A stretch of DNA of 13,200 nt from Candidatus Hydrogenedentota bacterium (GCA_003697085.1 RFFU01000016.1:1-13200); one strand, 5' to 3'. Positions 1,482 through 13,200 are shown, numbered from the stretch's first letter. The notes: generated by a model from the letters alone, not told the origin. Made by a program: numbers and translations.

Positions 1482-2921
1482 ATGGCTCCTTCCCTGCGGA
1501 AAAGAAAAAGCCTTTTGGTGCTTTCGCCGCGGCAAAGCTCCGAGTATGATCTCGGCGTTATGGGGGACGGGACACCTCCAATCGAGTTGCGCATCAGCGA
1601 AGATGCGATGACGGCCGAGGTGAAGATCGCCTCGGGCGCGGCCGTCGGCCTTCCCGCCGTGCTGAACGCTCTGGCGGGGCGGGGTGTCGTGTATGGAATT
1701 GATCAAAAAAGCATCGAGGAAGCGCTCGAGAAGCGCGGGGAATGGGTCGTCGTCGCCAGAGGAACCCCGGCCGTCAAACCCGTGCATGGCCGAGTCGAAT
1801 ACCATTTTTCCACATCTCAGAAACCGAAGGTCACGATTCGCAAGAACGGTTCCGCGGACTTCAAGGAGCTCGGTTACGTTCAAAATGTCACGGCCGGATT
1901 CCAACTCGCCACCCTCGTCGATCCCGTCCCCGGGCGAACCGGCCGGAACCTCCGGGGTGACGTATTGCCGTGTGCCGAGCCGGTGCCGGCGAAACTCAAG
2001 CCCGGGCGGAACGTCTCGATCTCCGAGGACGGCCGCCATCTCATCGCCGACGTCGATGGAGCCGTCAAGATCGACCGCGACGGCGTCGTCTCCGTCGATC
2101 AGGTTCTCAACATCCTCGGAGACGTCGGGCCCGAGACGGGAAACATCGACTTCGTTGGGACGGTTATCGTCGGCGGCAACGTTCTTTCCGACTTCCGCGT
2201 CAAGGCGGCGGAAGAGGTTGTCGTCCGCGGCTCCGTCGAGGGGGCCTTCATCGAGGGCCGGAAAGGGGTCCGGATCGAAGGGGGGGTCTTCGGAAGCGGA
2301 AAAGCCCTGATCCAATCTCCCGGTAACATCACTGTTCGGCGGGCGCAGGATGCCCACCTCTATTCCGGAGGCGATATTCTCGTTCAGGACAGCCTCGTGC
2401 GGGTCAGCGCGGTCGCCGCCGGAAAAATTTCCGTGGCACGCGCGATTATCGGAGGATCCGTCGCCGCCCCTTCGGTCTTCGCCGGAACCCTCGGAGCCGA
2501 TTCCGAAACCCGCACCGTGGTCGAGATCGGAATCTCACCTCGCGCACGCCTGATGGGACGAAAATGGGAGATGGACTTTCAAAAGGCTCGTAACCGGCTC
2601 ATCATCGTGAGAGAACGCCTCCATCCGCTCCAGGAAGCGAAGCGGAGCGGAAAGATCATGGATCGCGAGATGGTCGTCGAGATGGATCGGCTCGAACGGG
2701 AAGAGTTTTCGTTGCTTTCGACGATCCTGGCCGCCGCGGCGGATGTCCGCATTATGCTCGCGAAACCGGATACCGCCGTGCCTGGGACCCTCACCGTCTC
2801 GGGCACGGTTCATCGCGGCGTCATTCTGGCCTCCTGCGGGATGGAGCGACCGGTCACGCAGGAACATCCGCGCTTGAAGGTCACCGCGAGCGAGGGGAAA
2901 TTAGCAGGAGGCGCGGCGTGA
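1482..2921 (+). CDS. FapA/DUF342 family beta-helix protein
   Basis: The 479-residue product matches the DUF342 (FapA) architecture. A N-terminal alpha/beta region runs to about residue 205 and includes the typical opening IELRISEDAMTAEVKI. A right-handed beta-helix follows at about 215-345, with repeated Gly/Val/Ile rungs such as GNIDFVGTVIVGGNV, EEVVVRGSVEGAFIEG and GVRIEGGVFGSG. A helical, probably coiled-coil segment lies at about 355-425, and a short beta tail ends the protein. The founding member FapA is linked to flagellar assembly and polar targeting, but relatives occur widely and there are no flagellar genes here, so the role is open. It has no signal peptide or membrane span and is probably cytoplasmic. 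The start is uncertain: ATG 1482 has a GAGG only one base away, and an in-frame ATG at 1560 (codon 27) would still keep the whole domain. The stop codon overlaps the GTG start of the next gene, so the two are coupled. Confidence 0.9.
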   Translation: MAPSLRKRKSLLVLSPRQSSEYDLGVMGDGTPPIELRISEDAMTAEVKIASGAAVGLPAVLNALAGRGVVYGIDQKSIEEALEKRGEWVVVARGTPAVKPVHGRVEYHFSTSQKPKVTIRKNGSADFKELGYVQNVTAGFQLATLVDPVPGRTGRNLRGDVLPCAEPVPAKLKPGRNVSISEDGRHLIADVDGAVKIDRDGVVSVDQVLNILGDVGPETGNIDFVGTVIVGGNVLSDFRVKAAEEVVVRGSVEGAFIEGRKGVRIEGGVFGSGKALIQSPGNITVRRAQDAHLYSGGDILVQDSLVRVSAVAAGKISVARAIIGGSVAAPSVFAGTLGADSETRTVVEIGISPRARLMGRKWEMDFQKARNRLIIVRERLHPLQEAKRSGKIMDREMVVEMDRLEREEFSLLSTILAAAADVRIMLAKPDTAVPGTLTVSGTVHRGVILASCGMERPVTQEHPRLKVTASEGKLAGGAA

Positions 2922-4003
2922 AGGACGCGGAGATCATCCAGCCGCTGGGCTCTTTCGCGACTGCGGTCCGCAAGAACGTCAAGGGACTCTCGAGCCGGAT
3001 CGTGTGGTACGCGTATGGAATGGAGAACGAATTCGAGGCGGGAGGCGCCTCACAGGAGGATTTCACGCTCAAACCTCTCCCCAAGAACCGCGTGGACTGG
3101 GAAACCTATGTCCTGGCCCAGGGCGCCGGAGCCCTTCAAGGGCACATGACGGGAAGGATCGACCCCGACGGAACCCTCAATCAGGACAAGAAGACACAGT
3201 TCATCCATCAGATTCTTCCTGAAAACTTCGCGTTCCTCGCCTCCCGTTGTCGGATTCCCGGAACCGGAACCGGCGGCCGTCTCGGACTGCTTCTCAAGGA
3301 TCCGGTCCGCGCCTCGGCCATCCTCTTCTTTCAGGAATATCTCCGAAGCATCTACAAATCGGTTGCGGGCGCCGACGAAACGCTCCTGCTCAAACTCCTC
3401 GCCGATCTCCCCGGCTCCGTCCCCCCCAAGGAACTCCTCGCCTCGTGGCGCGAGAATGAAGAGATACTGAAGAAGGAAACCCGGAATCCGATCTACGAAC
3501 CCGACGAGAACCACCAACTGCGAATCTATGTCAAGGAAGGAAAGAAGAAGAAACTCGTCAACGGTTGGCTCTTCGGGACCGAAGAAGAACCGGAAGAGGA
3601 GGAAAGGGGTGCCAAGGAAATTCCGGCGGGCACGGATTACGACAGAAGGATCGAGAAGGGGGCGTTTTACACGCGAATGATGGCATTGTTGGACGAAGCC
3701 GCGTTTCTGATCGGACCGGACGGCTCGGCGGTTCTGGACGCAGCCGTCGAGATTCGCTCGGGAGCTGTCGGTAAGATGGTCCAGGCCGTCCAGAAATTCA
3801 CGGACCTGGCGGACTCGCGCCAACTTACGGAACAGCACGCCAAGATGGCGGAGTCTCTTATTTCACGCCTGGAAACCTTGGGGAAGATCGCGGGAAGCCG
3901 CGGCCGGCTCCTCGAAAGCGTTGGCCTCGACCGCGAGGCGCTCAAGACCGCGCAGGCTGAAACCCTCCGCCTCAAGCGGAAACTTCGTATCCAATCCTCG
4001 TAG
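2918..4003 (+). CDS. hypothetical protein, translationally coupled to the DUF342 gene
   Basis: This is a 361-residue product that I do not recognise. It starts at GTG 2918, which overlaps the TGA of the upstream gene (GTGA). A strong AGGAGG at 2906-2911, six bases upstream, supports this start. It has no signal peptide or membrane span. The middle holds a Lys-rich turn (GKKKKLVNGW, about 208-217) followed by an acidic run (TEEEPEEEER, about 221-230), perhaps an exposed linker. The part after about residue 245 reads as mostly helical, with a heptad-like C-terminus rich in Leu, Glu, Lys and Arg. The tight coupling suggests that it works with the DUF342 protein, possibly as a binding partner; that is inference. 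It ends in TAG and converges with the Yip1-family gene, leaving a 59-bp gap with no convincing terminator. Confidence 0.85.
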   Translation: MKDAEIIQPLGSFATAVRKNVKGLSSRIVWYAYGMENEFEAGGASQEDFTLKPLPKNRVDWETYVLAQGAGALQGHMTGRIDPDGTLNQDKKTQFIHQILPENFAFLASRCRIPGTGTGGRLGLLLKDPVRASAILFFQEYLRSIYKSVAGADETLLLKLLADLPGSVPPKELLASWRENEEILKKETRNPIYEPDENHQLRIYVKEGKKKKLVNGWLFGTEEEPEEEERGAKEIPAGTDYDRRIEKGAFYTRMMALLDEAAFLIGPDGSAVLDAAVEIRSGAVGKMVQAVQKFTDLADSRQLTEQHAKMAESLISRLETLGKIAGSRGRLLESVGLDREALKTAQAETLRLKRKLRIQSS

Positions 4004-5873: not shown

Positions 5874-6200
5874 GTGACGTTGAAAGAGGACATCAGAGCC
5901 AGGTTTCTTGCTGAAAAACCACGGCTCATCGAGGCTCTGCGCCGTTATCGCCCGGAACGCGTCTACCTCTTCGGCTCCTTTGCTCACGGCGATGTCAACG
6001 CCCACTCCGATATCGATCTTTGTATCATCAAGCGAACGAAGCGACGTTTTCTCGACAGGATCGAGGAGGTTTCGAGGCTTTTGAATTCTTCCTTCCCGCT
6101 CGAGGTCCTCGTTTACACTCCGGAGGAAATGGAGGCGATGCGGCGGATGCGAGTTCCGCTGGCGCGGGTGATCCTCGAAGAAGGAGAGAGGCTGCTATGA
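5874..6200 (+). CDS. MNT-type nucleotidyltransferase (antitoxin of an MNT/HEPN pair)
   Basis: The 108-residue product contains GSFAHGDVNAHSDIDL at about residues 34-49. This is the GS-x10-D-x-D signature of minimal nucleotidyltransferases (PF01909), with G34, S35 and the metal-binding D46 and D48 all present. Length and layout are normal for the family, and the protein looks complete. Such proteins are encoded next to a HEPN protein and act as its antitoxin; in the characterised MntA/HepT pair the antitoxin modifies the toxin with AMP. The start is GTG 5874; TTG 5880 is an alternative, because no well-placed ribosome-binding site separates them. Its TGA overlaps the ATG of the HEPN gene (ATGA, 6197-6200), the usual coupling for this pair. 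The odd point is that the antitoxin is intact while its toxin partner is frameshifted. Confidence 0.9.
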   Translation: MTLKEDIRARFLAEKPRLIEALRRYRPERVYLFGSFAHGDVNAHSDIDLCIIKRTKRRFLDRIEEVSRLLNSSFPLEVLVYTPEEMEAMRRMRVPLARVILEEGERLL

Positions 6201-6590
6201 GTGAGAACCGCAGGTTATACCAGCGGTGGTTCCAAACGGCTCAGGAAGACTTGGAAGCGGCCCGGTGGAACCTCCAGGGGGGATTCTATAGTCAAACCTG
6301 CTTTCTCTGCCAACAGGCTGTCGAGAAGGCCCTGAAGGCGTTTCTCTTTTTGCAGGGAGAGCGGGATGTATGGGGACACAGCGCCGAGTTCTTGGCAAAG
6401 ATGACCAGTCGGCTATCTCCCGCTTCTCGAGGAGAAAATGTCGGTGTTGAAGAAACTCGATCGTTTCTATATCCCGACTCGGTATCCCAATGGCCTCCCG
6501 GAGGGAACGCCGCACCAGAATTACACGCGCGAGGATGCGGATTTCGCCTTGCGGCTGGCCGAGGAAATAATGGGGTTTCTCTCCAGGTAA
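6197..6590 (+). pseudogene. HEPN-domain protein (toxin partner) broken by one frameshift
   Basis: From ATG 6197 the frame reads YQRWFQTAQEDLEAARWNL and FYSQTCFLCQQAVEKALKAF, the typical opening of HEPN proteins (PF05168), then RDVWGHS at about residues 56-62. R56 and H61 form the R-x4-H pair of HEPN RNases. After about 6405 this frame turns to unrelated sequence and stops at 6595. The +1 frame takes over with LLEEKMSVLKKLDRFYIPTR, YPNGLPEGTPHQNYTRED and ADFALRLAEEIMGFLSR, the normal HEPN ending, to TAA 6588-6590. Removing one C from the CCC at 6419-6421 would give a continuous protein of about 130 residues, the usual family size. Either the toxin is inactivated or the base is a sequencing error. 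If unshifted, it would be the RNase-like toxin held in check by the MNT protein upstream. Confidence 0.85.
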
Positions 6591-6610
6591 AATAAGAGGT
6601 TCGTCAGCAA

Positions 6611-6682
6611 AATGACAACGCGGGGCTTGGTTCATCCGCCCGCAGGTTGGAGAACCTGCGCCTCGCTTCTGCCGACAAGATG
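6611..6682. repeat. direct repeat copy 1 with a perfect internal palindrome
   Basis: This 72-bp block returns almost unchanged at 6892-6964. It begins AATGACAACGCGGGGCT and contains a perfect 8-bp inverted repeat, CGCAGGTT-ggag-AACCTGCG, at 6641-6660. An imperfect one around GCCGACAAGATGGCGGC follows. It begins 20 bp after the HEPN stop codon. Copy 1 and copy 2 differ by a few substitutions and one inserted C. No coding potential is evident. Confidence 0.8.
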
Positions 6683-6721
6683 GCGGCGTTCCCAGGGATC
6701 GCGCTCCTCGCGGGTCTTCCT

Positions 6722-6759
6722 GCAGGCAAGATGCCTGCGCTACCAGGCTAGAGAGCCTG
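6722..6759. repeat. two tandem short palindromes
   Basis: The first unit is GCAGGCA-aga-TGCCTGC (6722-6738, perfect 7-bp arms, 3-base loop). The second is CAGGCT-agag-AGCCTG (6744-6759, perfect 6-bp arms). They are joined by a short ctac-type spacer. The same layout, a palindrome carrying an AAGATGCC or GGATGCC core and then a CTACC or GTCCC tail, is typical of dispersed intergenic palindromic repeats in several GC-rich bacterial groups; that comparison is from memory. Confidence 0.7.
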
Positions 6760-6795
6760 CGCTCCATGCCGTGCCTCCATGGCGCTTCCCTTCCT

Positions 6796-6812
6796 GCAGG
6801 CAGGATGCCTGC
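6796..6812. repeat. short palindrome, second copy of the GCAGGCA unit
   Basis: GCAGGCA-gga-TGCCTGC has the same arms as the unit at 6722-6738 but a different loop base, and is preceded by the same TTCCT. This shows that the element is repeated inside this gap rather than being a single hairpin. A smaller GGGC-ttc-GCCC palindrome follows at 6874-6884. The bases between 6813 and 6873 show nothing else I can name. Confidence 0.7.
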
Positions 6813-6891
6813 GGTCCCGGGAGAGTGTTCATTGCCCGGTTCGCTGGTCGCCACTCCTGGGGGATTCCTCGTCGGGCTTCGCCCTCCTCGG

Positions 6892-6964
6892 AATGACAAC
6901 GCGGGGCTCGGTTCATCCGCCCCGCAGGTTGGAGAACCTGCGCCTCGCTTCTGCCGGCAAGATG
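6892..6964. repeat. direct repeat copy 2 with a perfect internal palindrome
   Basis: This is the second copy of the 6611-6682 block, with one extra C and a few changes. The 8-bp palindrome CGCAGGTT-ggag-AACCTGCG recurs at 6923-6942. The sequence runs on into GCCGGCAAGATGCCCGC and a C-rich stretch, and ends a few bases before the stop codon of the PorV-like gene at 6989. The two copies bracket the shorter palindromes, so the whole 6611-6985 stretch is a small repeat cluster between convergent genes. Confidence 0.8.
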
Positions 6965-6988
6965 CCCGCGGTCCCCGGGGAATTACGC

Positions 6989-8623
6989 TTACCTCTTCAC
7001 GCCCTTCAAAAACGATTTTCCTAATTGACTCCAGAAAGATTGGTTGCGTTCGAGATTTTCCAACGGCGCTCGTTTTTCCGCCTCGTTGATATCCCGCCAC
7101 CCTCGCCGCACCGTCCCGCGTATCACCACCTCGCCGTCTCGAATCCAGTACTCCCCCGTCACACTCTCCTTCGCCTCGCTCGGCTTCTCGACGACGTCCC
7201 TCCCTTCGTCTCGAAACCCTCGCGCCAAAATCTCCTTCACGTATTTGCCGATCCAGGAGTAACGCTTCGGACCCGACCTCTGCCGGAAAGCTTCGACATA
7301 AATCGGAGGGCCAACCTGCTTTTCGGCGGCCCGTTCGCTTGAGTTCTCTTTCTCCGCCGGCTTCTCCTCCTCCGCCTTCTTCCCAACAGTGGCCGATTCG
7401 GAACCGGCGACCTCTTCCCTCCTCCCCGGCTTCTTCCTCGTTTCATCACGTCGATGCTGCCGCGATCGTTGCCGCGCTACCTCCGTCCGCTTTTCCCGCA
7501 CTTCTTCTTTCCGCGCTTCCCGCATCCGCGGCGCTTCCCTCCGCGGTGCCTTCCGCGTTTCCTTCTTCGCTACTTTCCTCTGCTCCCGCTTCGTTCTCTT
7601 CGCCGGCTCCGCTTTCCCTTTCTCCTGCCCCTTTCCCTTCCCACGAACCGTTCGCTTCTTCTCCCCTCCCCACTTCGGCTCCTTCCGCTCGGGCCCGAAG
7701 GCCATCCAGATCGAGGCGCGGTGCTGGGCGTCGAGGCCGCGTTGCGCGGGCACGAAGGCGTAATCGATTCGCATCTTGTCGAGATGGAAGCCGACGCCGA
7801 CGGCGGTATGAACCTTCCCCGCGCGCGGCCCCGAAACCCCCGCGCGGAACGTCAGCATTCTCGTCAACGCCGCCTCGATCCCTCCCGTGAACTCCCAATC
7901 CGCGTCGTTGGATTTGGCGGCATCCGCTCCGACGAAGAGCCGTCCGTTCCAGAACCGCTTGCCGACGCCTGCGCGGAAGGTTCGCGGCAACGCGAACGTC
8001 TCGCGCACAAACCGTAACTTGCCGAAGAGATTGGACCCGCTCAGGCCAATCGCCAGCGATCGGTCCTCGTTCTCCCAGAGTACTCCGAGATCGGCACTGA
8101 AGGTCTGATCCGTGAAGCGATCGAGACGTTCGTTGAGATACTTCCCCGTCACGCCGATCCGAAGCCGCTCGGTCAATCGCAGGCCGGCTGTGACTGCGGC
8201 GAGATCATCGCCGGTCTGAATCTTTCCGAGGGTGCGTCCGGTCGCGTCGGTCTTGTCGATCGAGCCGTAATCGACGTTGGTGTAAGCGATACCGAGGATG
8301 ATCCGATCGGCGACGGGTTGAGCGAAACCGATCAAGTTCACGGCGATGTCGGCGAAGGACTGGACGCGGGAGAGCGAAATCTCGCGCCGTCTCAAATCCG
8401 CCAGCCCGGCCGGATTCGTCCAGAGCGATTCGACTCCGCCGCCCGTCGCCGCCGAGAGATCGGCCAGCGCGGCCGTACGGGCGGTAATGGCGTCACGAAG
8501 GATCGGGGCGGCGCTGGTTCCGGCTCGGCTCGCCGGGGTCGCTCCGACCGGCGCAACCGCGAGGAGCGCTAGGGAAAGGAAGAGAAACAGGCCCGGACCG
8601 GACCGCCGGAAGCGGCTTCTCAT
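6989..8623 (-). CDS. PorV/PorQ-like outer-membrane protein with basic linker and extra C-terminal domain
   Basis: The 544-residue product starts at ATG 8623. An Arg-rich n-region and hydrophobic core (GLFLFLSLALLAVAP) form a signal peptide cleaved near residue 28. Residues 29-309 show the PorV/PorQ pattern: AARTAALADL-type opening, GVESLWTNPAGLA at about 64-76, then alternating beta strands (IILGIAYTNVDYGS, LRIGVTGKYLNERLD, TFRAGVGKRFWNGRL) as in an outer-membrane barrel. Residues 310-438 are a highly charged, Lys/Arg/Glu-rich linker. Residues 439-544 (from PPIYVEAF) form a small domain; its YVKEILARGFRDEGRDVVEK and TGEYWIRDGEVVIRG resemble FlgO-like domains, a tentative match. PorV in type IX secretion binds the C-terminal signals of cargo at the outer membrane. 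The ATG overlaps the TGA of the giant repeat protein (ATGA), so the two are co-translated. The open frame upstream of 8623 lies inside that gene and is not used. Confidence 0.85.
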   Translation of the reverse strand: MRSRFRRSGPGLFLFLSLALLAVAPVGATPASRAGTSAAPILRDAITARTAALADLSAATGGGVESLWTNPAGLADLRRREISLSRVQSFADIAVNLIGFAQPVADRIILGIAYTNVDYGSIDKTDATGRTLGKIQTGDDLAAVTAGLRLTERLRIGVTGKYLNERLDRFTDQTFSADLGVLWENEDRSLAIGLSGSNLFGKLRFVRETFALPRTFRAGVGKRFWNGRLFVGADAAKSNDADWEFTGGIEAALTRMLTFRAGVSGPRAGKVHTAVGVGFHLDKMRIDYAFVPAQRGLDAQHRASIWMAFGPERKEPKWGGEKKRTVRGKGKGQEKGKAEPAKRTKREQRKVAKKETRKAPRREAPRMREARKEEVREKRTEVARQRSRQHRRDETRKKPGRREEVAGSESATVGKKAEEEKPAEKENSSERAAEKQVGPPIYVEAFRQRSGPKRYSWIGKYVKEILARGFRDEGRDVVEKPSEAKESVTGEYWIRDGEVVIRGTVRRGWRDINEAEKRAPLENLERNQSFWSQLGKSFLKGVKR

Positions 8624-11394
8624 CGGATCACCACCAGTTTCCCGACGCGTCGTTCGGCGCCGTTCTCCAATACATAGACGTACACGCCCGAAGCGACGGC
8701 GCGACCGGCGGCGTTCCGTCCGTCCCATCGCACGGTGTTGGCGCCCGCCGCCACGAACGCCTCGTCCACCAACCTTCCGTCTCCCGTGTAAATCCTCACC
8801 CGCGTTCCGGAGGGCAGATTGGCGAAAGTGACATACTGGTGCCCCGCTGCACTGTTCGGCTCGAACGGGTTCGGATAGACGGTAACGGAGTTCAGGTCAT
8901 TGACAGCCGCTCCTCCCGCGATCGAGAAGATCGTCAGATGGTCCACCTCGACCGTGACCCAGTTGTTCACCGGATCGACCACACTCCCAGGTTCGACGTT
9001 CCATCGCCCGAGGTCCTCGTCGAGTCGATAGATTTGCAAATTTTGTTCGCGAATCTTCGTTCCGTCGACGATTCCGTCCTGATCGGCATCGGGATAAGTG
9101 ATCCGAACCTCGATGCTCCTCTTCAAGGAATGCTGCTCTTGGCCGCCGATTCTGACGAGGAACTGGTGTTCGGAACGCACCTGCTCGTTGGTCGCCGTGG
9201 AAAGGGACGTGAGGTTGCGGACGTCTCCGAGTTCGTTGTTGGCGATCGCAATCAGCGGCGGCAAGGCCGGCGTGTCGCTGAGGGCGTTAAAGTTCTCCAC
9301 CGTGATCTTGGCGGTATCGGGGAAGAGGGAGGCGGGAGCGATCAGCATCCCGATCGTTCCATTCTCCGGTTGATTCGCAACAAGGAGGCGGCTGTCGGCT
9401 CCCGTTGAGAGAATCACTCCGGCCACGAAGGTCTCCGCCGAGACCTCGAAGACCATCCGCAATTCGGCATCCTCGACCTTGTTGTAAACGAAGCGGGCGA
9501 ATCCGCTCACGATCGTCTCCGAGCGGCTGGTGAAGTCGCCCGTGCCGCCGGTGAACGAGAGCAGGCGGACGGGCACGAGAAGTTCGAGGTCGGGGATCGT
9601 GTCGCCGAAGCGATCGAGGAAGGTGACGAGGAAGAGCGTCGTATCGGTAAAGGGCGTCGCGTCGACGTGGAGGAGCGCGATGGGCGAGGAGAGTTCGAGC
9701 ACGGCGGTATCGAGCGCGAGATCGGCCGCGTCGAAGAGATCTCGATAGGTAACCGTCAGCGTCTCGCCCAACCGAGCCTGAATCACTCCGTCCTCAACCC
9801 CCGGCGTATCGCTCACCTCGAACGACAACCCGACGACATTGCGGAAAACGCCCGAGGTGTCGGTCGTCTCGGTCAACTCCACCGTCTCGGTATCCCCGCG
9901 CGCTGCGTCGATGATCGTAACGCTCACGGTATCCGGGGAGCGCGGATCGACGTTCGCGTTGGGATCGGTCAGGACCGCCACGACGGAATCTCCCGGAGCA
10001 TAGATCGCCTTTTCGAAGGAGAGCGCGGACGTGGAGAACGTCATCACGAAGGTACCGGCGACCGTGGCGCTGTCGGAGGGAGCGTCCGGATCGCGATAGG
10101 TCACCGAGAAGGTATCGCCGGCGCCGATCATCAGAATCCCGTCTTCAAGGTTGGCACCACGCGTATCGGAAAGCCGCAAGCCGGCCGCATTCGTGAATCC
10201 TCCCGTCGCCGCCGCCGTCTCGGTCAAAACGACCGTCTCGGTATCCCCCGTCCCCGGAACGAAGACGGTCACGGCGACCGTCTCGACCGCCAACGCCAGA
10301 AGATTCTGATCGAGATCGATCACGGTGATGACGAGCCGATCCGCCACGACGTAAGTCTCCGCATTCAGACTGATCGCGCTCGGCGTGGGATCGGGCACGA
10401 TCGTCGCGGTGTCCAGAGCGGTTTCCGAACCGTCATACGCATCGGTGTACTCCGCTCGAATTTCGTCTCCGACCTGCACGAGAAGGTTCCCATCCCCGTT
10501 TGTCGGAAGGCCGACCTTTATCAGCGGCAAAAGCCCCGTGAAGATGCCGCTCGTCTCCCCTGTCTCCGTCAAAAGCACCGTCTCGCTGTCGGTGGTCGTG
10601 GGGTCCCGGAGAATCACGGTCACGGTTTCGGCGAGGCGCGGGCGACGGTTCCGGTCGGGATCGGAGAGCGTAATCGAGACGGTCTCGGACGGCGTGTAGG
10701 TCGCCTGATTGAGAAGCAAAAGCGACGGCGTCGCGCGGCGCACCGTCGGCACGCTCGTCTCCGCCGAATCCGCCACGCCGTACGGATCGGCGTAGAGCGC
10801 CCGAACGGTATCGCCGATCCCGATCAGAAGAATCCCGTCCTCCGCCGTTCCGCCGCGCGTATCGGAGACGGCGATCCCGGCGAAGGTGAATTGTCCCGAA
10901 CTGTCGGCCGTCTCCGTCAAAACGACCGTCTCGGTATCGGCCCCGAGCAGGCTCGTGAGTATCACGTTGAGCGTATCGCCGACGAACGGCGCGCGATTCA
11001 TATCGGAATCGACGACGGTCACGACCAGCACGGAGTCGGGGGCGGTCAACGGCGTCGCGATCGCAATCGTTCCCGTCGAGGGAACTTCCGACACAAAGAC
11101 CGTATCGAGCGAGGCATCCGTGTCGTATCGCGCCACGATCGAGTCGCCGAATCCGGCCGTCAATATCCCGTCTCCCGGCCCGGACCCCCGCGTATCGCTG
11201 AGGAAGATCCCCTTCGAGACGAACCGCGGGGAAGAAAGCCCATCCTCGGTCAACGTGACCACTTCGGTGTCGCCTGATCGGACCGTGACGAGAACGGCGT
11301 TGACCGTCTCAACGAGCAGCGGGTTCCGATTTCGATCGGTGTCGACGAGAACCGCAAAGACGCTGTCCCCCGCCCGATAGGTTCCGGGCGGATT
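8620..11394 (-). CDS. giant Ig-like repeat surface protein, C-terminal part with FlgD-like/T9SS-type sorting domain
   Basis: This is the part of the giant gene downstream of the in-frame TGA at 11397-11395; the frame is the same as upstream. It encodes the rest of repeat 6, then repeats 7-10 of about 116 residues (for example DTETVVLTETADSSGQF, LSDTRG, ED/GDGIL, GDT-x-x-x-x-Y-x-D). From about 9684 a non-repeat region of some 260 residues follows, including a calcium-loop-like DADQDGIVDG at about 9061-9092. The last 93 residues (8901-8623) are a FlgD-Ig-like/T9SS type A-like C-terminal domain: SVTVYPNPFEPN, VRIYTGDGRLV, ANTVRWDGRNAAGRAVASGV. The first possible internal start, GTG 11262, has no Shine-Dalgarno and lies mid-repeat, so independent translation is unlikely. 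The protein is probably exported and surface-anchored or released. The TGA stop overlaps the PorV-like start. Confidence 0.82.
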   Translation of the reverse strand, partial: NPPGTYRAGDSVFAVLVDTDRNRNPLLVETVNAVLVTVRSGDTEVVTLTEDGLSSPRFVSKGIFLSDTRGSGPGDGILTAGFGDSIVARYDTDASLDTVFVSEVPSTGTIAIATPLTAPDSVLVVTVVDSDMNRAPFVGDTLNVILTSLLGADTETVVLTETADSSGQFTFAGIAVSDTRGGTAEDGILLIGIGDTVRALYADPYGVADSAETSVPTVRRATPSLLLLNQATYTPSETVSITLSDPDRNRRPRLAETVTVILRDPTTTDSETVLLTETGETSGIFTGLLPLIKVGLPTNGDGNLLVQVGDEIRAEYTDAYDGSETALDTATIVPDPTPSAISLNAETYVVADRLVITVIDLDQNLLALAVETVAVTVFVPGTGDTETVVLTETAAATGGFTNAAGLRLSDTRGANLEDGILMIGAGDTFSVTYRDPDAPSDSATVAGTFVMTFSTSALSFEKAIYAPGDSVVAVLTDPNANVDPRSPDTVSVTIIDAARGDTETVELTETTDTSGVFRNVVGLSFEVSDTPGVEDGVIQARLGETLTVTYRDLFDAADLALDTAVLELSSPIALLHVDATPFTDTTLFLVTFLDRFGDTIPDLELLVPVRLLSFTGGTGDFTSRSETIVSGFARFVYNKVEDAELRMVFEVSAETFVAGVILSTGADSRLLVANQPENGTIGMLIAPASLFPDTAKITVENFNALSDTPALPPLIAIANNELGDVRNLTSLSTATNEQVRSEHQFLVRIGGQEQHSLKRSIEVRITYPDADQDGIVDGTKIREQNLQIYRLDEDLGRWNVEPGSVVDPVNNWVTVEVDHLTIFSIAGGAAVNDLNSVTVYPNPFEPNSAAGHQYVTFANLPSGTRVRIYTGDGRLVDEAFVAAGANTVRWDGRNAAGRAVASGVYVYVLENGAERRVGKLVVIR

Positions 11395-11397
11395 TCA
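11395..11397 (-). other. in-frame TGA interrupting the giant repeat gene
   Basis: The codons before it read ITLVDSA and those after it NPPGTYRAGDSVF, which continue the same repeat in the same frame without loss of residues against the neighbouring repeats. A single-base change from TGG, CGA or GGA would restore Trp, Arg or Gly. TGA works as an ordinary stop at 2919-2921, 6198-6200 and 8622-8620, each in a four-base overlap with the next gene. A changed genetic code is therefore not supported. It is a nonsense mutation, a sequence error, or, least likely, a readthrough site. Confidence 0.8.
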
Positions 11398-13200
11398 CGC
11401 GGAATCGACCAGGGTGATCATCCCCGCGGACGGCGGGATCGTGTCGATCAAGGCCGTGGAGAACGGCGCATCGGCCGGTGTGTTCGGGTCTTGATAGTCC
11501 ACGCGGATCGTGTTCCCGATCATGACGTAAAGCCGGCCGTCGCCCGAGAGAGAATCGGAGAGAAGTGAGGAGAGGAAGAGACCCGTGTCATCGACGAACG
11601 TGAACGACGTGCTCGAGGTTTCCCGCAGAAGACGCTCTTCCGTCTCCCCCGTGTTCGTGTTCGTCACCGTCACCGTAATGGTATCCCGAACACCGGGATG
11701 GCGATTCTCGTCGCGGTCCACGACGGTCACGAACGCCGTCTCGGCCAGCGGATAGAGAGCACGATCGAACAAGACCTGGGAGGTCATCGGGGAATCGATC
11801 GTGAGGACGGAGTCGGAAGCGAAATCGAGGAAGACCGGATCGCGGTACTCCGCCTGAATCGTGAAGTTTAATCCCGCGGTCAGAACGGTATCCCCCACCA
11901 CGGCCGGAAAGGCGGTATCGGAGAGAAGAAGCGGCGCGGGCAGCGTGAAGATCGCCGAGGTCTCGGTCGTTTCGACGAGCGTGAAGACCTCGAAGTTGTT
12001 CTCGACGGCCGCACCCGTCGGATCGCTCACGAGCAGCCGGCGCAAGGTGATCGTCTCCGCTGCATACGGGTCGGTGTTTCGATCCATGTCGTGAACGATG
12101 ACTTGCAGCGTATCGAAGACGGTGTAGTTCGTTCGATCGAAACGGATCGATCCCTGCGAGGGCGTGATTCCCATCTGAGCGGTGTCGCTTTCCACCGTCA
12201 CCGGCAGCGGATCGGCGTAAAGAACCTCGATCGTATCGCTGTTCGAGGCGAAGAATTTCCCGTCTCCGGGCACGACGACACCGGTATCCGTGAAGACAAG
12301 CGCATTCGACGTGAAGGTCAACGACGTGGAATCGGTCTCCGTCAAGAGAAGACTCTCCGAATCACCGGTTCGCGGATTCTGCACCGCGACGCCGAGGGTG
12401 TCCTTCCCGCGCGGATCGAGGTTTCGGTCCCGATCGAAGACCGTGATCACGACGCTGTCGGTCTGGAGATAGGAGTCGCGATCGAAGGCGACGGTCCCCG
12501 CCTTCGCCAGGGTATCGACCGAAGCCAACGCCGAAGCCGAATCGGTCGGATCCACGGCATCGACGTAAACGGCGGTGAAGGTATCTCCGAGAGCGACGAG
12601 CAGCGCGCCGTCGTTCGAGGCGAACCCCGTCGTGTCGGAAATCCGCGCTCCGGCCGCGTTCGAAAAGACGCCCGAGGTCTCACTCGTCTCCGTCACCAAC
12701 ACCGACTCCGTGTCGTTTCGCGTTTCGGAAACGAGGGAAACGGAGAAAGAATCGAGGACCAGCGGATTCCGATTCCGGTCCGGGTCGGTGACAATCACGA
12801 CGACCCGCGTTTCCGGCGCGTAGGAGGAGCGGTCGAAGGCGAGAGAAGAGTTGCGCGGCGACCGCGCGATCCCCGCCGTATCCGTCGAGGAATCGAAGGG
12901 CGTCACGGCATCGACATACCGCGCCGTGATCGCGAAGACCTGCCCCGTGAAGAGAATCCCGTCGTTGATTCTCACGCCGATCGTATCGGAAAGCGGCAGG
13001 CCGGTGGTGTTGCGAAAGATGCCCGAGTCGGCCGCCAGTTCCGTAAGGACCAGCGTCTCCGAATCCCCCGTGTTCGTGTCGAAGACGGTCGCCGAGACGT
13101 TCTCGATGAGCGCGCCGCTGAGGTTCTGGCCGGTGTCGCGCACCTGTACGAAGACGAGCGAATCCATCGCGAAGACCGAAACCGCGTTCCCGTTTCCGTC
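11395..13200 (-). CDS. giant Ig-like repeat surface protein, N-terminal part in window, 5' end beyond edge
   Basis: The minus-strand frame is open from the right edge to a TGA at 11397-11395, about 600 codons. It contains the end of one repeat, four complete repeats and the start of a sixth. Each runs as a hydrophobic strand with FDR-x-x-Y, a D-x-D-x-N-x-x-P loop (DPDRNRNP, DRDRNLDP, DMDRNTDP, DRDENRHP), a T-G-D-S/T-E strand, a ET-x-x-TS-x-x-F strand, an LSDT turn, and a GDT-x-x-x-x-Y-x-D strand. This reads as a beta-sandwich (bacterial Ig-like) array; the exact family is not assigned. The sequence upstream of the first ATG at 13167 is still repeat-like, so the true start and the expected signal peptide lie to the right. 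The protein breaks off at VDSA in mid-repeat, which is why this is taken as one gene with the downstream part. Possible roles are adhesin or surface layer. Confidence 0.82.
   Translation of the reverse strand, partial: DGNGNAVSVFAMDSLVFVQVRDTGQNLSGALIENVSATVFDTNTGDSETLVLTELAADSGIFRNTTGLPLSDTIGVRINDGILFTGQVFAITARYVDAVTPFDSSTDTAGIARSPRNSSLAFDRSSYAPETRVVVIVTDPDRNRNPLVLDSFSVSLVSETRNDTESVLVTETSETSGVFSNAAGARISDTTGFASNDGALLVALGDTFTAVYVDAVDPTDSASALASVDTLAKAGTVAFDRDSYLQTDSVVITVFDRDRNLDPRGKDTLGVAVQNPRTGDSESLLLTETDSTSLTFTSNALVFTDTGVVVPGDGKFFASNSDTIEVLYADPLPVTVESDTAQMGITPSQGSIRFDRTNYTVFDTLQVIVHDMDRNTDPYAAETITLRRLLVSDPTGAAVENNFEVFTLVETTETSAIFTLPAPLLLSDTAFPAVVGDTVLTAGLNFTIQAEYRDPVFLDFASDSVLTIDSPMTSQVLFDRALYPLAETAFVTVVDRDENRHPGVRDTITVTVTNTNTGETEERLLRETSSTSFTFVDDTGLFLSSLLSDSLSGDGRLYVMIGNTIRVDYQDPNTPADAPFSTALIDTIPPSAGMITLVDSA

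Follow-up and report, generated by a model that had tools for sequence, protein, structure and literature searches.

A PorV/PorQ-family barrel gene overlapping the end of a giant sorting-domain gene in a Candidatus Hydrogenedentota bacterium, and the recurrence of such pairs

Results

The cargo-barrel locus

Here we describe two overlapping genes on a 13.2-kb stretch of DNA (the window, 13,200 nucleotides), which is the entire contig C42 of the draft genome of a Candidatus Hydrogenedentota bacterium (G000; 3.2-Mb, 145 contigs, 94.6% complete). The upstream gene encodes a giant repeat protein, the cargo, that ends in a C-terminal domain (CTD) resembling the sorting domains of the type IX secretion system (T9SS); its frame occupies the minus strand from 13200 to 8620, with the 5' end open at the contig end. 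The downstream gene encodes an outer-membrane barrel of the PorV/PorQ family. The original prediction, made from the sequence alone, held that the cargo stop overlaps the barrel start, and indeed the two genes share a 4-nt ATGA at 8620-8623. Close by, GGTGATC at 8632-8626 can pair with the 3' end of the 16S rRNA, matching its complement, and we take it to be a Shine-Dalgarno site (3' part, good match). The features of the locus are:

11398..13200, minus strand: giant cargo, mid-section (601 codons, open at the 5' end); Ig-like repeats of ~105 amino acids (aa), with the upstream continuation on contig C106
11395..11397, minus strand: in-frame TGA inside a cargo repeat; codon 3760 of 4684, the sole stop, with the next 924 codons open
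8620..11394, minus strand: C-terminal portion of the cargo, 924 codons plus stop; holds more repeats and, besides the sorting domain, two other domains
8623..8871, minus strand: sorting domain, T9SS type A-like, nearest to the PorZ CTD (family profile matches)
8626..8632, minus strand: GGTGATC, Shine-Dalgarno-like, within the codons for the cargo's terminal V-I-R; common to most pairs of this genome
8620..8623, minus strand: ATGA junction, 4 nt; barrel ATG (8623-8621) overlapping cargo TGA (8622-8620)
6989..8623, minus strand: PorV/PorQ-family outer-membrane barrel gene, 544 aa plus stop (profile matches)
8540..8623, minus strand: signal peptide predicted by eye for the barrel protein, ~28 aa; sequence MRSRFRRSGPGLFLFLSLALLAVAPVGA
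7697..8518, minus strand: barrel domain (paralogue profile matches solved PorV 6h3i)
7313..7696, minus strand: K/R/E-rich linker in the barrel protein (alignment, sequence)
6992..7312, minus strand: C-terminal extension domain of the barrel protein, possibly TolB_N/FlgO-like and presumably periplasmic (alignment; weak matches)

The giant, multi-repeat character first ascribed to the cargo stands in part: the repeats are real, but the window holds only the last third of the gene, and the frame is interrupted by the TGA at 11395-11397. The last 99 bases of contig C106 are exactly the first 99 bases of C42 as read on the minus strand, a 99-mer unique in the genome, and the joined gene has 4,684 codons, with its N-terminal two thirds at the end of C106. 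It encodes 30 detectable repeats of ~105 aa, 10 of them within the window, starts on C106 with a GTG behind a purine-rich site, and begins with what is, by eye, an N-terminal Sec signal peptide (...SWKRFLFVLGGLFFSAVSVLAAP). The TGA may be a consensus error, a polymorphism or a recent nonsense change; its use as a sense codon is rejected, since TGA terminates genes at pair junctions.

At the other end of the cargo, the final ~85-95 residues score 25.8 bits against TIGR04183 (Por_Secre_tail; cut-off 23), or 30.1 bits when scanned alone, and also match the PorZ CTD (NF052228, E 2.7e-15 to 4e-17) and solved PorZ 5m11 (E 4e-8). The C-terminus reads VGKLVVIR, in which the Lys of the GK motif is the conserved near-end Lys of type A CTDs. 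Thus, of the FlgD-like/T9SS-type label originally given to this domain, the T9SS half holds in its type A-like form, whereas FlgD_ig is a weaker match that falls below its cut-off. Among the scanned CTDs of the order, TIGR04183 matches 15/15 and the PorZ CTD 14/15. Three other identities were considered and rejected: a FlgD hook-cap protein (Ig match sub-cut-off, flagellar context absent); PorZ itself (the NF052228 match is limited to the CTD, at 56-62 bits against a cut-off of 260, and the full-length test found no beta-propeller PorZ body in the cargo); and a type B CTD/SprF pair (TIGR04131 is weak in 1/15 CTDs and TIGR03519 weak in 1/12 barrels, with the window members matching neither model).

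The barrel protein bears out its predicted PorV/PorQ likeness, scoring 121.2 bits against the family model NF033709 (cut-off 90), and the profile of barrels from its own genome reaches solved PorV 6h3i at E 9.5e-33. It lies nearer PorQ (79 bits) than PorV (46 bits) and is neither protein proper, both equivalog models being far under cut-off (NF033710 / NF033711; PorV 42-46 bits, cut-off 250; PorQ 76-79 bits, cut-off 220). All 12 barrels scanned match PorV and PorQ. PorV is a member of the FadL/OmpP1 superfamily, and some members of the barrel family give weak Toluene_X matches.

Beyond the barrel domain, the window gene encodes a C-terminal extension of ~230 aa. Such extensions are found in 20/51 barrels of the four genomes in which no PorU was seen (G000, G001, G019, G030) versus 3/34 elsewhere. 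Their possible family is suggested by a TolB_N match for one barrel paralogue only, in L064 (E 0.0015, below cut-off), and by a weak match to FlgO chains (E ~0.9). About half of the barrels of this genome carry the TolB_N/FlgO-like domain after a charged or proline-rich linker (window; L056, L057, L060, L061, L064), a fusion that is unusual among PorV-family proteins and absent from the counterpart barrel in L094.

Recurrence of cargo-barrel pairs

To count such pairs, loci were chosen by similarity to the window barrel, independently of their neighbourhood, with a barrel profile rebuilt from its own matches; the listed barrels are all in sense frames. The genome of the window has 16 PorV-family matches, 15 with enough sequence, and in 11/15 the barrel lies directly 3' of a CTD gene. 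Taking ~21 CTD genes in a gene total assumed to be ~3000, the probability of this arrangement is ~2.6e-21, and chance is therefore no explanation for the pairing. The overlap is exactly 4 nt in 10/11 pairs, the remaining pair (C130) abutting; another overlap count gives 9, since L066 has a broken barrel frame. Two further barrels, on C110 and C6, are in one operon with CTD genes.

Other genomes repeat the arrangement, which the original prediction had proposed to look for in relatives. In the nearest relative, G001, which is the order's one other genome here, 10/14 barrels are paired, and one locus (C149, L074/L094; PEWQ01000180.1, Candidatus Hydrogenedentes bacterium CG07_land_8_20_14_0_80_42_17) is the counterpart of the window pair, with the same ATGA, 48% identity over the last 411 residues of the cargo and 41-42% identity between the barrels. 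Across ten genomes, 60/85 barrels examined are paired; a start codon at -4 is found in 33/60 pairs (G000, G001, G004, G008, G010, G019, G030), and the pairs of G046 and G059 are adjacent without overlap. A profile scan built from two sequences matched one relative and gave no match among viral contigs. The window barrel is thus not the partner in a single special pair, being one of at least 11 in its genome and 60 in ten genomes.

Three loci of this genome have an unusual layout. In L066 (6271-7118) the barrel gene is split into two frames right after its CTD partner, by a frameshift or an assembly error. On C110 (L062 8573-10829) a CTD gene, a GDP-mannose 4,6-dehydratase gene and a PorV-family barrel gene form a tight operon, placing a sugar-nucleotide enzyme inside a cargo-carrier unit, and on C6 (L064 4102-13206) two CTD genes are followed by two PorV-family barrel genes in a single operon (2:2).

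Matching of sorting domains and barrels

Within genomes, the more two CTDs differ, the more their barrels differ as well: CTD and barrel distances correlate at r=0.71, versus 0.06±0.09 when partners are shuffled inside each genome, and 0/5000 shuffles reached as high a value. It is this co-diversification that supports the originally proposed idea of a dedicated partner.

Genes that stand alone offer a view that is independent of linkage. The orphan barrels L061 and L099 (G000 and G001) share 54-58% identity with the class L056/L057/L097 and <=37% with the rest, and that same class supplies the nearest CTDs for most of the orphan CTDs; furthermore, the orphan barrel L104 and the orphan CTDs L169 and L176 all point to the pair L102. 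The numbers are small, CTD identities are similar from one class to the next, and L104 and L169 belong to two different genomes; we therefore regard the agreement of orphan classes as suggestive. A like arrangement is known in Flavobacterium johnsoniae, where one orphan barrel serves three orphan type B substrates (PMC12618676).

Secretion machinery

A search for SprA and PorU homologues, proposed with the original prediction, gave a divided answer. The genome holds a SprA-like frame of 2,100 aa (C50) with two TIGR04189 matches of 74 and 61 bits (cut-off 200) and a SprA_N match at E 5e-5, below cut-off; a counterpart frame of 2117 aa is present in G001. The PorU catalytic region was not found in the draft genomes G000 and G001, where NF033707 matches are confined to CTD positions, and the same search found full-length PorU in G002, G004, G008 and G010. 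Counts of CTDs and barrels are ~21/16 (G000), 16/15 (G001) and 12/11 (G019) in these three genomes without a visible PorU; the PorU-bearing G059 and G046 have 202 and 155 PorU-model candidates (of which most are presumably CTDs, and not every one was scored) versus 13 and 20 barrels. The genome and its nearest relative thus appear, from these profile matches, to keep a divergent SprA with only the CTD part of PorU visible, and with nearly equal numbers of CTDs and barrels. The original suggestion of a lineage whose T9SS is poorly described is supported.

Neighbouring genes and repeats

The rest of the window holds genes of other kinds. An AAA-ATPase_like (PF09820) protein is encoded at 1-1305 on the minus strand, truncated by the contig end, and a FapA/DUF342-type protein (PF03961 and PF20250) at 1482-2921; the end of the latter gene is overlapped by a gene at 2918-4003 with no family match. 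At 5874-6592, a nucleotidyltransferase (MNT) gene and then a HEPN-domain gene form a type VII-like toxin-antitoxin pair, with an apparent ATGA overlap of their own near 6197-6200 and an MntA model match below cut-off. Short dispersed intergenic repeats lie at 6600-7000 of the window and at ~7900-7960 of L161, with a CRQDAGAPRY/AGKMPAVPGE-like peptide reading; short dispersed repeats also lie 5' of the cargo start on C106.

Discussion

The recurrence of these pairs invites comparison with the established route, in which PorV, inside SprA, binds a type A CTD with its loops and the two exit together laterally (PMC10994853), after which PorU cleaves the CTD, releasing PorV (PMC5562754). Not all sorting domains meet this end. 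PorZ on PorQ and PorU on PorV keep an uncleaved CTD in ~1:1 complexes (PMC5562754, PMC8545088, PMC10202324), and type B substrates retain their own SprF-like barrel, as in the cognate pairs of SprB and SprF (PMC9143113, PMC12618676).

On balance we favour a sortase-poor variant of the T9SS that works in the manner of SprB-SprF and PorZ-PorQ, with export and retention of each cargo falling to its own barrel, and consider this account probable. Cargo and barrel would both cross the inner membrane via Sec, and the barrel would insert in the outer membrane and dock on a single divergent SprA-like translocon; loops of this cognate barrel would then catch the cargo CTD inside the translocon, and the two would leave together by a lateral exit. 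Because no PorU sortase is seen in the lineage, the CTD would stay uncut and the barrel would not be recycled, leaving the cargo bound at the surface 1:1 to its barrel, as happens with PorZ and PorQ and with SprB and SprF. Every cargo molecule would thus use up a barrel, with the gene overlap supplying equal amounts; this would explain the ATGA-coupled translation, the co-diversification, and why CTD and barrel genes are nearly equally numerous. The repeats would extend from the surface as a long fibre. PorE has a periplasmic tether role in some type B operons, and it is our guess that the C-terminal extension of the barrel plays a PorE-like part as a periplasmic tether of the complex. The organism would then probably display about a dozen surface proteins, each encoded with its own barrel that carries the cargo out and holds it on the cell.

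Several observations weigh against this reading. The similarity to SprA is partial and below cut-off, and SprA is undetected in G019, although that genome has pairs. The GldM model gave a convincing match in 0/21 genomes, including ones with strong SprA and PorU; the model is therefore insensitive here as a marker of the motor. AlphaFold models built from two-sequence alignments reached a mean pLDDT (predicted local distance difference test) of 42-43, too poor to use, and the genome assemblies are drafts, 95% and 86% complete. The remaining points each lend weight to a rival account.

The first such account is a T9SS with a shared shuttle, in which the PorV copies are redundant and interchangeable, linkage serves dosage only, and a sortase that has escaped recognition later releases the cargo or attaches it. 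Pairs also occur in the PorU-bearing genomes G004, G008, G010, G046 and G059, and pairing therefore does not require sortase loss; moreover, ~8 CTD genes of G000, some at contig ends, have no barrel in their operon and must use a barrel encoded elsewhere. A single Bacteroidota PorV is indeed known to handle all type A CTDs through a plastic binding pocket (PMC10994853, PMC12618676). Nevertheless, the co-diversification of CTDs with neighbouring barrels within genomes and the matching of orphan classes both favour specificity, and the catalytic region of PorU was not found, so that we regard a common shuttle as unlikely.

A second possibility is that joint duplication of a two-gene operon explains the correlation with no cargo-barrel specificity, the barrel being an accessory porin or transporter for a surface structure. 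Tight linkage alone could yield correlated CTD and barrel trees, and the FadL/OmpP1 membership of PorV, together with the scattered Toluene_X matches, would suit such a role. However, linkage is maintained at low identity across genomes of different families, 12/12 barrels match PorV and PorQ, whose known role is CTD binding, and the orphans agree in class, and we therefore rate this explanation as less likely still. Lastly, it is very improbable that the window pair is simply decaying, with the TGA at 11397-11395 making the cargo a pseudogene, the coupled barrel poorly made and only the other pairs of the genome at work: the TGA, if real, would take the CTD off this cargo in a genome that uses TGA as a stop, but it is the sole stop in 4684 codons, and both the 924 open codons beyond it and the 48% identity to the relative fit a consensus error, or a change that happened very recently.

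If cargos are indeed retained by cognate barrels, the wider implication, put forward tentatively, is a sortase-free branch of the T9SS in which the PorV family may have radiated into specific one-cargo-one-barrel carriers that also serve as permanent anchors, some with a periplasmic tether, displaying very long repeat proteins in little-studied lineages. What is new is the make-up of the cognate cargo-carrier pairs: those known are of the type B/SprF kind, whereas these combine type A-like CTDs with barrels of the PorV/PorQ family. The prevailing view has one PorV for all type A CTDs and cognate carriers confined to type B (PMC12618676), in contrast with the type A-like pairs found here in several lineages, and we found no report of such pairs in the open-access literature (subscription papers lay mostly outside the scope of this search). 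The dozens of matched CTD-barrel pairs offer a natural set for finding the determinants of carrier specificity, while the lineages without visible PorU, whose barrels are about as numerous as their CTDs, present a case for asking how T9SS cargo stays on the surface sortase-free.

Comparison with known systems

The canonical PorV shuttle (PMC10994853, PMC5562754) shares with the present system its CTD class, its barrel family and, putatively, a SprA-like translocon. It differs in relying, in Bacteroidota, on one shared PorV that is recycled by PorU, whereas here there are ~16 PorV-family genes, mostly linked to a cargo, and the catalytic part of PorU is undetected.

A second comparison is with SprB-SprF and the other type B PorP-SprF pairs of Flavobacterium johnsoniae (PMC12618676, PMC9143113). 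In both systems a large surface protein with a sorting CTD has the gene for its own outer-membrane barrel (14-strand) directly downstream, and there are many pairs per genome with a few orphans; the class agreement between orphan CTDs and orphan barrels described here mirrors the orphan barrel shared by orphan type B substrates in F. johnsoniae. Unlike those pairs, the CTD here is type A-like (TIGR04183, PorZ-like), the barrel belongs to the PorV/PorQ family instead of PorP/SprF, the genes are coupled by ATGA and no PorU is seen.

A third comparison is with PorZ-PorQ and PorU-PorV of Porphyromonas gingivalis; the CTD of the window is nearest that of PorZ and its barrel scores higher with PorQ than with PorV. 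There, a protein with an uncleaved CTD is held at the surface by a PorQ or PorV barrel at ~1:1, and by analogy we propose that the same may apply here. PorZ and PorU belong to the machine itself, with one of each in a cell, whereas here a dozen repeat-rich or multidomain cargos are each encoded with a barrel.

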